From Paraburkholderia sp. PGU19 (GTDB lineage Bacteria > Pseudomonadota > Gammaproteobacteria > Burkholderiales > Burkholderiaceae), in assembly GCF_013426915.1 (NCBI RefSeq), contig NZ_AP023182.1, forward strand, positions 1,302,001 to 1,366,000: DNA of 64,000 bases. The letters run 5' to 3'. Shown here in pieces: positions 42,806-51,172 of this stretch. Positions within the stretch are counted from its first letter, which is position 1, and each line of letters starts with the position of its first letter. A program made the translations under genes and the position numbers. The notes beneath the pieces were generated by a model. That model saw nothing but the letters and a program-made list of their open reading frames with translations, was not told the DNA's origin and searched no databases.

Positions 42806-42819
42806 TTGATTCAGGTCAA
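42806..42819. promoter_or_regulatory. FNR/ANR-type box 2 (DUF2252 operon)
   Basis: TTGATTCAGGTCAA (TTGAT-N4-GTCAA). On the minus strand TATCGT at 42779-42784 lies 21 bp beyond the box, close to class II spacing for the DUF2252 operon. Confidence 0.75.
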
Positions 42820-43868: not shown

Positions 43869-43882
43869 TTGACCAAAATCAA
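43869..43882. promoter_or_regulatory. FNR/ANR-type box 3 (arcD-arcA)
   Basis: TTGACCAAAATCAA (TTGAC-N4-ATCAA). TATGCT at 43904-43909 on the plus strand lies 21 bp after the box, giving a class II-like promoter for arcDA. Confidence 0.75.
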
Positions 43883-46854: not shown

Positions 46855-47868
46855 TTACAGCGCCTGCATCGCCGCGTCGATGTCGAGTCCGCCGGGTAAC
46901 AATTCACTGCGTGGGAACCTGACCATTACGAATGAACGAATGACGGCCGGCTTGCCCGGAATGCGCGCAAAGTGAAACTCGATATCTGTCCCGGCACGAC
47001 TGTCAGGGGCTTGTACGACGTTCATCGAGTCGATCCGCACGTGTCTGCTTTTCACGTGCAGATGATCTGCCGGTTTGAGGAACACGTTGCACACACACTC
47101 CAGTTCGAGTTCGAGCGAGTCTTCCGGCACCCGTAGCTTTGCAAGCGCACGCGAATTCTTTTCCATCTCCGCCTGGATGCGAACCAGGTCGTCCGCTGCG
47201 GCGATGGCGGGCTCGCCGACAACGTCGCGCAAGCCCGTGCCCTGGCTTTCGAGCAAGGCGACGCGTTCTTCGATGAGCGCCCTCGACCGCTTTGCCAGAT
47301 CGCGCCGGTTTGCCCCGAGACTTTCGAAGCCCGCCAGTGCCAGCTGATCGATGAGCCGGCGCCCGATCTCCGCACGTAATGACGCTTCCGAATCGCTGCA
47401 GATTCTGACGCGATGGTCGCTGAAACATAGTGTGGTTTGTGGCACGTCGTGACGAATAGAATCGCCTTCGAGTGCAACACCCAATATGTGCCGCTCGGTC
47501 ATCGCCATACCCAGAACGGCATACGCTTCTGCCGGGGCCGCGTCTCGTGCGAACAGGTCGCGTAGTGCCTCTGAGCGGCTAAATGCTTGAGAGAGGTCGC
47601 GGGGCGTGGCGAAGAACGCGCGAATCACAGCGTCGAACGACCACGCTTCGGCGTTGGCGTCGCGCACCGGCGGCAAAGACGCGACGAGATCGTCCGTGTA
47701 GCTCAGCGCCGTGGTGAGCGAATGCGCAAGCCGCTCTTCGTGATCTCGTGCGCGCTTCAATTTTGGATTCATCGCGAGCACGCGCGCGACTGCCTCGCCG
47801 ATCCTGTTCTCCGTGTCGGCGTCCGTGCGCCTGCGCCGGCGCATAAGCAATCCATTGAACAAGCCCAT
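46855..47868 (-). CDS. Hypothetical protein (337 aa)
   Basis: An intact frame starting at ATG 47868 (MGLFNGLLMRRRRRTD, GGAG 8 bp upstream); the open sequence further upstream has no coding character. Long helical sections (RIGEAVARVLAMNPKLKRAR, RRDLAKRSRALIEERVALLE, LVRIQAEMEKNSRALAKLRV) suggest coiled coil. A C-terminal beta-rich part reads LELECVCNVFLKPADHLHV and PGKPAVIRSFVMVRFPRSEL. No signal peptide. I do not recognise the family. Convergent with arcA. Its 5' region contains the candidate small RNA at 48046-48157. Confidence 0.6.
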   Translation of the reverse strand: MGLFNGLLMRRRRRTDADTENRIGEAVARVLAMNPKLKRARDHEERLAHSLTTALSYTDDLVASLPPVRDANAEAWSFDAVIRAFFATPRDLSQAFSRSEALRDLFARDAAPAEAYAVLGMAMTERHILGVALEGDSIRHDVPQTTLCFSDHRVRICSDSEASLRAEIGRRLIDQLALAGFESLGANRRDLAKRSRALIEERVALLESQGTGLRDVVGEPAIAAADDLVRIQAEMEKNSRALAKLRVPEDSLELELECVCNVFLKPADHLHVKSRHVRIDSMNVVQAPDSRAGTDIEFHFARIPGKPAVIRSFVMVRFPRSELLPGGLDIDAAMQAL

Positions 47869-48043
47869 CTTTCGCGCTCCGAGTGGCCTAAGCTTGCCAT
47901 TCCGGCGGCATCCGTGCGCTCGACCTGCGGCCCTGCAGGGTATCGCGCTGGAGTCGCTATTGCGTTGCATCCGCCGATTTGCTGTTCCCATGGACGGCGT
48001 GATTGACCGCCCGGGATGGCAGCCGCGGATAGGTGGTGATGGA

Positions 48044-48100
48044 AGAAAAAGACCCGCCAGGCATCGCCTTCGCGAGGGGTCCAGCTGCGTAACTGGCGGG
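48044..48100 (-). terminator. Terminator of the candidate small RNA
   Basis: Perfect 8-bp stem CCCGCCAG/CTGGCGGG with a 32-nt apical part, followed on the minus strand by TCTTTTTCTT. It lies between the FNR box and the start of the 46855-47868 gene, and does not follow any protein gene. Confidence 0.6.
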
Positions 48101-48157
48101 ATTCCAAAGTCAGCAACAACACCAGACAGCCGGGAGGTGAAACAGAACGGCCACTGG
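48046..48157 (-). ncRNA. Candidate FNR-controlled small RNA (about 110 nt)
   Basis: On the minus strand a perfect FNR-type box (48193-48206) is followed after exactly 22 bp by TATCGT (48164-48169), the class II activator arrangement, predicting a start at about 48157. A hairpin with arms CCCGCCAG (48053-48060) and CTGGCGGG (48093-48100) and a T-run (48050-48046) then ends the transcript about 110 nt later, before the next start codon at 47868. The RNA contains a single-stranded-looking UUUCACCUCCCGG, complementary to ribosome-binding sites. No reading frame with a ribosome-binding site was seen. Prediction only. Confidence 0.5.
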
Positions 48158-48163
48158 CGAACC

Positions 48164-48206
48164 TACGATAGGAGGAAAAAGACGTATCCCATTTGATTTG
48201 CATCAA
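48164..48206 (-). promoter_or_regulatory. FNR/ANR-type box 4 with class II promoter
   Basis: Box TTGATTTGCATCAA at 48193-48206 (perfect), then 22 bp, then -10 TATCGT at 48164-48169 on the minus strand. Centre of the box is at -41.5 relative to the predicted start. Confidence 0.75.
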
Positions 48207-48304
48207 CGCGAACTGGAGATCGCCGGACAATATGAGCGAGCAGTGAAATAGCTCCGTCGATGTCCGTTGCTGCAGGACGGACATTCCGCGAGATTGACCC
48301 GCCT

Positions 48305-49795
48305 TCAACGGCGGACGATCGCATCGATCGGGAATCTGCTCTGGCCGCAAAATCCGCCGTCAGGTTTGTTTCCAAACCAGGCGAAACCGTTGAGTTGCCG
48401 CACGCGCTCGCGTATGCCCAGCAGGCCAAATGAGTCGGGCTTGCGGCCGGATGCCAGATCGGCACCGCGTCCGTTATCCTCGATACGGACTTCACACTCG
48501 CTATTGTCGAGTTCGATGGTGACGACGACTTCCGTCGCACTCGCATGACGCGCCACGTTCGACAGCGCCTCCTGCACGATGCGAAAGATCGCGGTCGCAG
48601 CCGTATCGCTGAACTCGAGTTCGCCCGCCGACAGACGGGTGTTGACCTTGATCCCGTAGCGCCGGCTGAACTCATCGGCCAGCCACTCTACGGCGGGCAG
48701 CAATCCCAGATCGTCCAGCATGGTGGGACGCAGACCCGACGCGATGCGCCGGACCGCGCTCATCGTCTCGTCGGTCTGTGTGACCAACCCGCGCGCCTTC
48801 GCGGCCGTTTCCGAGGTGTCATGGCCAGCTTCGACTTCCTGCTGCAGGATGATCGCGCTCATTTTCAACGCGGTCAGCTTCTGACCGAGGTCGTCGTGCA
48901 GTTCTCTGGCGATTCTCTTCTGTTCCTCTTCCCGCGCCCGTTCAGTCGCCGCGGCAAGTTCGCCGACATGTTCGAGCTGCTCCAGCCGTTTATGCTCAGT
49001 CAAATCACGCGTCACCTTGGTGAAGCCCTGAAGCGCTCCCTTATCGTCGCGAATGGGAGTGATGATGGCGTCTGCCCAGAAACGCGAGCCATCGCTCCTG
49101 ACACGCCATCCTTCGGCTTCCGAACGCCCCCGTGTGGACGCTGTCTCGAGCATGCGTTCGGGCAAACCCGCCGCCCGTGCTTCTGGCGGATAGAAGACGG
49201 AAAAGTGGCGGCCGATAATGTCGCTGGCGGAATAGCCCTTGATTCGCTGCGCGCCCGTATTCCAGGAAGCGACCTCCCCTGTAGGACTCGACATAAAGAT
49301 CGCGTAGTCTTCGACGCTGTCGATCATCGCCTGTAAGCGCTGCTCGCTTCTGCGAAGTTTTGCCTCGATCAGATGACGCTGCGAAAAATCGTGCGTGACG
49401 GCCGCAAACCCGGCAAGATCCCCCTGCTCACGTCGTTGCGCGATGACCAGTACGCTGGCCCAGAAGCGGGTTCCGTCCTTGCGCACATGCCAGCCCTCAT
49501 AGTAGGCTCGCCCGGTCGCCGCCGCTCTCGCCAGAATGTCCGACGGGACGGGCACATCCGGGGGAACCTTGGGATAAAGTACCGAAAACGGCTTGCCGAG
49601 GATTTCACCCGCCCCGTAGCCGGTAATGTGTTCGGCCGCAGCATTCCACGTCTCGACCTGACCGTGTGTGTCGAGCGTAAAGATGGCGAATTCGCCGTCG
49701 ATATCAATGGCAAAATGATAGCGGTGTTCCCCGGCCGCATTGCCCTCGGGGTCCGCCTTTTCGTCATTACCACCTGGGGCGCTCGTGCCGCTCAC
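48305..49795 (-). CDS. PAS-PAS sensor histidine kinase (NarX/LuxR-system type)
   Basis: A 496-aa cytoplasmic sensor kinase without transmembrane helices. Two PAS domains (about residues 30-140 and 150-270, each with DGTRFWA/DGSRFWA motifs) precede a HisKA_3 dimerisation domain with the phospho-His in RIARELHDDLGQKLTALKM (H300), then a HATPase with EALSNVARHA and VRIEDNGRGAD, SFGLLGIRERV. Such kinases normally phosphorylate NarL/FixJ-type regulators; none is seen in this window. The soluble PAS pair suggests oxygen or redox sensing, but no haem ligand could be assigned. Intact. Confidence 0.88.
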   Translation of the reverse strand: MSGTSAPGGNDEKADPEGNAAGEHRYHFAIDIDGEFAIFTLDTHGQVETWNAAAEHITGYGAGEILGKPFSVLYPKVPPDVPVPSDILARAAATGRAYYEGWHVRKDGTRFWASVLVIAQRREQGDLAGFAAVTHDFSQRHLIEAKLRRSEQRLQAMIDSVEDYAIFMSSPTGEVASWNTGAQRIKGYSASDIIGRHFSVFYPPEARAAGLPERMLETASTRGRSEAEGWRVRSDGSRFWADAIITPIRDDKGALQGFTKVTRDLTEHKRLEQLEHVGELAAATERAREEEQKRIARELHDDLGQKLTALKMSAIILQQEVEAGHDTSETAAKARGLVTQTDETMSAVRRIASGLRPTMLDDLGLLPAVEWLADEFSRRYGIKVNTRLSAGELEFSDTAATAIFRIVQEALSNVARHASATEVVVTIELDNSECEVRIEDNGRGADLASGRKPDSFGLLGIRERVRQLNGFAWFGNKPDGGFCGQSRFPIDAIVRR

Positions 49796-51158: not shown

Positions 51159-51172
51159 TTGATCGAGATCAA
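51159..51172. promoter_or_regulatory. FNR/ANR-type box 5 (CBS protein)
   Basis: TTGATCGAGATCAA, perfect. On the minus strand AAGATT at 51131-51136 is exactly at class II spacing, so it most likely serves the CBS-BON gene. Confidence 0.8.

Follow-up and report, generated by a model that had tools for sequence, protein, structure and literature searches.

A candidate FNR-activated small RNA with a predicted anti-Shine-Dalgarno loop in Paraburkholderia

Background

The small RNA FnrS has a family of its own in Rfam. In Escherichia coli and its relatives, passages of PMC8139620 describe this RNA as FNR-dependent and as a repressor of mRNAs that are dispensable under anaerobiosis; they also describe PaiI of Pseudomonas aeruginosa, an anaerobically induced RNA of 126 nt that depends on NarXL and on which the effect of ANR is most likely indirect. 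Among betaproteobacteria, AniS of the meningococcus and FnrS of the gonococcus are made under oxygen limitation and have elusive targets according to passages of PMC5362039, which also present NmsRA and NmsRB of Neisseria meningitidis, sibling RNAs whose exposed UC-rich anti-Shine-Dalgarno stretches lie in loops or single-stranded regions. CU-rich stretches predicted to lie over ribosome-binding sites are attributed to the Burkholderia double-hairpin or toxic RNAs (RF02278) and to Bordetella S17 in passages of PMC5688073 and PMC11722255. Two small RNAs raised under oxygen limitation, RIT1 and RIT81, come from Burkholderia cenocepacia, a member of the same bacterial family as the organism considered here (passage of PMC10987360). 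Among the literature matches listed (titles and abstract openings), none described a small RNA of Burkholderia or Paraburkholderia that depends on FNR.

We analyzed a 64,000-nt stretch of DNA from Paraburkholderia sp. PGU19 (the window), for which a preliminary description had proposed a small anaerobic RNA acting as an analogue of FnrS. The candidate (the element; 48206-48044 on the minus strand, Table 1) resembles FnrS in its predicted trigger and differs in bacterial class and context. A search of the whole window returned no Rfam family at gathering score, and membership of the FnrS family by sequence or structure homology was accordingly not found. Within 48000-48260 the search gave sX5 alone, at 11.6 bits against a cut-off of 50 (E 8.1), and the RF02278 model had no match at E up to 10, which leaves the element outside that family as well; on four related loci the only match was to an irrelevant snoRNA outside the element. 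The NmsRs share with the element an anti-Shine-Dalgarno loop, predicted in our case and compared by description only, and differ in being two sibling copies; no FNR control is named for them in the passages of PMC5362039, whereas the element carries an FNR box. The RF02278 and S17 RNAs have several homologues per genome in the passages cited, unlike the single-copy element. The likeness to RIT1 and RIT81 (FNR control is unstated in the passage of PMC10987360), and to AniS and gonococcal FnrS as low-oxygen RNAs, is one of description, the element lacking an Rfam match. PaiI is similar in length, but it needs NarXL where the element has an FNR box. If the interpretation developed below holds, the element would share its kind of trigger with FnrS and its anti-Shine-Dalgarno loop with the NmsRs, while belonging to neither by the tests made, and a functional analogy with FnrS is plausible.

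Table 1. Coordinates of the element, its predicted parts and its neighbors in the window
Feature	Position	Strand	Basis or remark
Sensor histidine kinase gene (PAS-HisKA_3-HATPase)	48305..49795	-	Pfam; adjoins the element on its upstream side in 5/5 copies
FNR box TTGATGCAAATCAA (perfect TTGATN4ATCAA)	48193..48206	-	Exact match
-10 hexamer TATCGT	48165..48170	-	Exactly 22 bp past the box
Predicted non-coding transcript, ~113 nt	48046..48158	-	Deduced from the -41.5 geometry and the terminator; island of conservation; covariance model match 48041-48164
5' hairpin	48120..48159	-	98.3% of cells paired in 5 copies
Apical-loop motif UCACCUCCC	48132..48140	-	Holds UCACCUCC, as in the 16S rRNA 3' end
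Linker GUUGUUGCUGACUUUGGAAU	48101..48120	-	Identity 65-90% among intact pairs
Intrinsic terminator (8-bp stem around 32 nt, then TCTTTTT)	48046..48100	-	58 nt beyond the inferred start
337-aa gene	46855..47868	-	3' of the element; 4/5 copies
Second perfect FNR box	51159..51172	-	5' of the CBS-BON gene

Results and discussion

Predicted promoter and terminator

The perfect FNR box that the preliminary description placed at 48193-48206 on the minus strand proved to be an exact match. Its claim of a TATCGT hexamer 22 bp further on was right in the spacing and one base off in the coordinates (48165-48170, not 48164-48169). Exact TTGATN4ATCAA sites number three in the window against 0.05 expected, and 0 of 100 shuffles reach three; with one mismatch allowed there are 11 boxes against 1.26 expected, a count also reached by 0 of 100 shuffles. 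The pattern TANNNT starts at 0.33% of window positions, and this box alone among the 11 has it at exactly 22 bp. In six of the others it stands at 19, 21 or 23 bp in a single orientation, and the remaining four lack it at 19-25 bp. A box centered near -41.5 and a -10 hexamer at 22 bp agree with the class II FNR promoter that had been claimed, and this predicted layout is kept in the intact relatives; the -41.5 geometry would put +1 at about 48158.

The 8-bp perfect hairpin and its T-tract also lie where they had been described, with the stem CCCGCCAG/CTGGCGGG pairing 48100-48093 with 48060-48053 and TTTTT at 48050-48046. Two 8-bp perfect stems with a T-tail, this one included, occur in the window when both strands are scanned, against a mean of 0.35 in 20 mononucleotide shuffles; a separate terminator scan with a loop limit of 8 did not pick up the terminator of the element. 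Sequence and comparison among relatives support a predicted short transcript closed by an intrinsic terminator, as well as the lack of a common coding frame. On sequence alone the element has the features of an intrinsically terminated intergenic small RNA, namely a putative promoter of its own, a terminator and no conserved reading frame.

Distribution and conservation

Among 144 genomes of the same genus, DNA and covariance searches located five that carry the element: the window's own (G000), P. caribensis (G053), Burkholderia sp. E7m39 (G153), G169 and Paraburkholderia sp. LEh10 (G021). Box, -10 hexamer, 5' hairpin and terminator stem are intact in the first four, which share the 22-bp spacing between box and hexamer (TATCGT or TATTGT). 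The N4 spacing within the box is present in four of the five copies; the first half-site reads TTGAC in P. caribensis, and the LEh10 box is 2 bp short. A first DNA search, of 146 relatives, gave five genomes at E <= 0.01, two of which (G024 and G131) were set aside on inspection as matches of 30 and 25 nt; a second, of the same-genus set, gave five of 144. At E <= 0.1 the covariance model matched 14 genomes of that set and 14 of the 398 drawn from the family, with five and two strong matches, respectively, both of the latter being among the five; no further convincing copy appeared in the 398 family genomes, three weak loci being left aside. Of 20 distinct weak loci, the 16 inspected over about 3 kb each lack TTGAYN4RTCAA and look like chance or unrelated terminators, and the loci outside that inspection (L019, L020, L021 and L033) are partial matches to the terminator part. 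Run on 27 sources, including 26 of 80 kinase-relative loci, the model gave strong matches in the window, LEh10 and E7m39 and a weak one in L043 (E 0.064), which lies within apparent coding sequence. The model's next-best matches in the five genomes score E 0.54 or worse; there is thus no sign of a paralogue, and the element appears to be single-copy. One record of a plasmid collection, P. caribensis MWAP64, matches at 100% with no annotated feature overlapping there, and the G053 copy is 100% identical to it over 181 nt.

A side observation concerns genome G020, where L031:1501-1591 combines ACCTCCC with a long hairpin ending in CTGGCGGG and a T-run, without an FNR box. This weak model match (E 0.0056) is probably due to chance.

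Conservation begins at the box and stops at the T-tract. Among the six pairs of intact copies the transcript is 76-93% identical, comparable to the 79-89% of the neighboring kinase coding segment, and in the three pairs with G169 it falls 3-4 points under that segment. The spacer from the box to the end of the -10 hexamer is 66-90% identical. Between the kinase stop and the box, the three pairs that include the window copy reach 9-14% identity in an alignment that is mostly gaps, and the other three 82, 45 and 41% across 22-29 columns; from the terminator to the next gene, identity is 55-58% in five of the six pairs and 83% between P. caribensis and E7m39. The conservation that the preliminary description had named as a check was found, in that relatives keep the box-hairpin arrangement and the box-to-terminator segment is better conserved than its flanks.

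Over the five copies the terminator stem is perfect or has one G-U in four and two mismatches in LEh10 (95.0% of cells paired), and the 5' hairpin shows one compensatory A-U to C-G pair (G169) and four pairs with one-sided changes. Five sequences give thin structural support, with 94 of 500 shuffles equaling it; slid controls pair only 24-49% of cells. The whole-transcript fold of the window copy is not clearly stabler than shuffles (z -1.07), nor is that of any copy (z -0.61 to -1.91). Because fold energy is unexceptional, and by itself offers no evidence, the case for the element rests on comparison.

Loop and candidate targets

The first eight bases of the loop motif in the 5' hairpin match the tail of the genome's own 16S rRNA; the longer tail used in this comparison has 7 exact sites in the genome, one confirmed as SSU rRNA. 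In the window copy CACCTCCC (48139-48132) occupies the apical loop with a predicted unpaired probability of 0.68-0.96, and of 0.04 for its last C. The core UCACCUCC, with a chance expectation of 0.002 in a transcript of such length, is present in three of the five copies (window, P. caribensis and E7m39), G169 having UCACCUCU, with one base changed, and LEh10 UCAGCUCC; TCACCTCC occurs once on each strand of the window, about chance level. Loop accessibility is predicted to be open in the window and E7m39 copies, partly paired in P. caribensis and G169, and mostly paired in LEh10. The proposal of an exposed stretch able to pair with ribosome-binding sites is supported for the window copy, where the stretch is complementary to Shine-Dalgarno sequences and predicted accessible, and is weakened by the folds of these last three. 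Since UCACCUCC in the loop is identical to the 16S rRNA 3' end, blocking of Shine-Dalgarno sequences would be the most natural mechanism.

Target prediction had been suggested as a follow-up, and the simple pairing searches used for it (ribosome-site patterns and a duplex scan of 185 window frames) gave no conserved target. The pattern GGGAGGTG-N-ATG has 19, 11, 13 and 6 sites in the window's genome, P. caribensis, E7m39 and G169, respectively, against 11, 3, 6 and 6 for the reversed pattern. Thirty of these 49 loci were translated, and the recurrent genes (CsbD-like, permease, symporter and dehydrogenase-like, named by eye) were rejected as targets because they merely have strong ribosome sites. 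For GGAGGTGAA-N-ATG there were 31 matches, with nothing specific among the 29 listed; one frame start, in E7m39 only, resembles a succinyl-CoA synthetase subunit. Two candidates from the window were also dismissed: the site CCGGGAGG of a SulP transporter is not retained in P. caribensis, the sole relative with the gene in the stretch compared, and GGGAGG before the kinase, kept in four of five loci, is an ordinary ribosome site.

The 337-aa gene family

The protein encoded 3' of the element has no match in Pfam or NCBIfam. Members of its family are present in 88 of 144 same-genus genomes, some of which have 2-3 matches each; the family is uncharacterised and possibly associated with low oxygen. 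The box lies 334-339 nt before the ATG of this gene in the four intact copies. Of 30 homologue loci inspected, four are those at this locus, four lie elsewhere and have an FNR promoter, two (L158 and L164) have boxes without the hexamer, and 20 lack TTGAYN4RTCAA in the upstream stretch examined. In L160, L162, L166 and L170, the four elsewhere, the box stands at -122, -161, -123 and -158 from the ATG with TANNNT at 21 bp, leaving leaders of 75, 114, 76 and 111 nt in which T runs never exceed three. L160 resembles L166 and L162 resembles L170, so perhaps only two events are represented.

Two damaged copies bear on the relation between RNA and gene. In LEh10 the kinase segment is 90% and the transcript 81% identical to those of the window, two terminator pairs are broken in addition to the shortened box, and no 337-aa gene is listed downstream of the element; a relative of the gene is present at another place in that genome. 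In Paraburkholderia sp. Tr-20389 (L037:6587-6783) a TTGAYN4RTCAA box is left, followed by a natural deletion that starts ahead of the -10 hexamer and reaches the 3' part of the 337-aa gene, so that the region of the FNR box is fused to that part. RNA and gene are thus both intact in four of four cases and neither is intact in two of two, few independent events that fit a functional tie.

Interpretation and alternatives

We consider the element most likely to be a genuine small RNA, restricted to one lineage and activated by FNR. The promoter layout, terminator, conservation and lack of a frame rest on sequence comparison, and from there we infer transcription, oxygen control, pairing in trans and repression. 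Our main reading, to which we assign a probability of about 0.53, is that the element constitutes a gene in its own right, for a small non-coding RNA that is activated by FNR at low oxygen and acts in trans on ribosome-binding sites. Falling oxygen would bring FNR protein to the box centered at -41.5 and activate the class II promoter; transcription would start near 48158 and stop at the intrinsic terminator near 48046, giving an RNA of ~113 nt. Its 5'-hairpin loop would display UCACCUCC, which copies the anti-Shine-Dalgarno tail of 16S rRNA, and by pairing with the ribosome-binding sites of some mRNAs the RNA would repress their translation at low oxygen. If the element is real, it offers related species with intact, decayed and deleted copies for direct comparison, and it would provide a handle on post-transcriptional adaptation to low oxygen in the soil and plant-associated members of the family.

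A more tentative reading is that the FNR promoter serves the 337-aa gene, the hairpin-terminator being a conditional attenuator in a 286-291-nt leader and the short RNA its terminated by-product. The FNR promoters directly upstream of four relatives of this gene (two similar pairs), 75-114 nt before the start codon, suggest that the promoter may have belonged to the gene ancestrally and that the RNA arose within the gene's leader, although this arrangement is found outside the locus in only 4 of the 30 homologue loci. That the element is decayed where the gene is absent (LEh10), or gone where the same deletion cuts the gene (Tr-20389), also indicates that the RNA may be, or derive from, an attenuated leader. 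The distance to the gene is nearly constant in all four intact elements, and a strict sigma-70 scan, which also misses the element's FNR promoter, finds no promoter between terminator and gene. A local hairpin, CCAGUU/AGCUGG, could compete with the inner half of the terminator stem; 90% of its cells are paired, and its two compensatory changes (E7m39 and G169) exceed the terminator's own covariation, with 25 of 500 shuffles equaling it. However, this hairpin overlaps just half of the terminator stem, and of its six pairs two are missing in G169 and one in LEh10. We rank a trans-acting RNA above a leader since loop and linker show more conservation than a terminator requires, whereas little is conserved from the terminator to the gene (55-58% identity in five of the six intact pairs). 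A combination of the two is somewhat doubtful: a promoter that drives the 337-aa gene in relatives would here have gained a terminator and the 16S-tail loop, so that most transcripts would act in trans as an anaerobic RNA with an anti-Shine-Dalgarno loop, and those reading through the terminator would still supply the gene. One promoter would then yield both a regulator RNA and a protein.

It is improbable that the hairpin simply terminates an upstream cluster and that the RNA is a 3' UTR or processed 3' fragment without a function of its own. Genes for a CBS-BON protein and a 108-aa protein, followed by the kinase ending at 48305, do lie 5' of the element on the same strand, and the perfect FNR box before the first of them is possibly the promoter of this cluster, although TANNNT is absent at 19-25 bp from it in both orientations. 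The terminator is the sole one on the minus strand in the window scan for 8-bp stems with a T-tail, and passages of PMC8139620 offer a precedent in NarS, which depends on FNR and is processed from a 3' end. Against such an origin, the internal FNR promoter is conserved and the intergenic stretch before it is not, conservation beginning at the box. A small protein or leader peptide encoded by the transcript is very improbable. The preliminary description had seen no start codon with a ribosome-binding site; the window copy has in fact a GTG behind a weak AGG that opens a 14-codon frame, as well as a long open frame, and a similar peptide stretch is open in P. caribensis in a different frame. 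By eye, however, no reading frame is common to the five copies, single-base indels shifting the frames between them and G169 having a stop in that stretch, and a coding function was rejected on this comparison.

Genomic setting

The window also codes for an arginine deiminase with an adjacent amino-acid permease, a DUF2252 protein, a P-type ATPase and, named by eye, the SulP-like transporter. Arginine deiminase and permease together with many FNR boxes are suggestive of an anaerobic pathway, and we read the region as a low-oxygen locus rich in FNR boxes. Two of the FNR-like boxes have a hexamer 21 bp downstream, TATGCT on the plus strand for 43869-43882 and TATCGT on the minus strand for 42806-42819; they lie near the permease and arginine deiminase genes and the DUF2252 gene, and these genes therefore look FNR-controlled too. 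The genome encodes four FNR homologues above the NCBIfam cut-off, each with a CxxCx5C cluster. One of the four (G000:C4:1393222-1393908) is on the same contig, about 27 kb past the end of the window.
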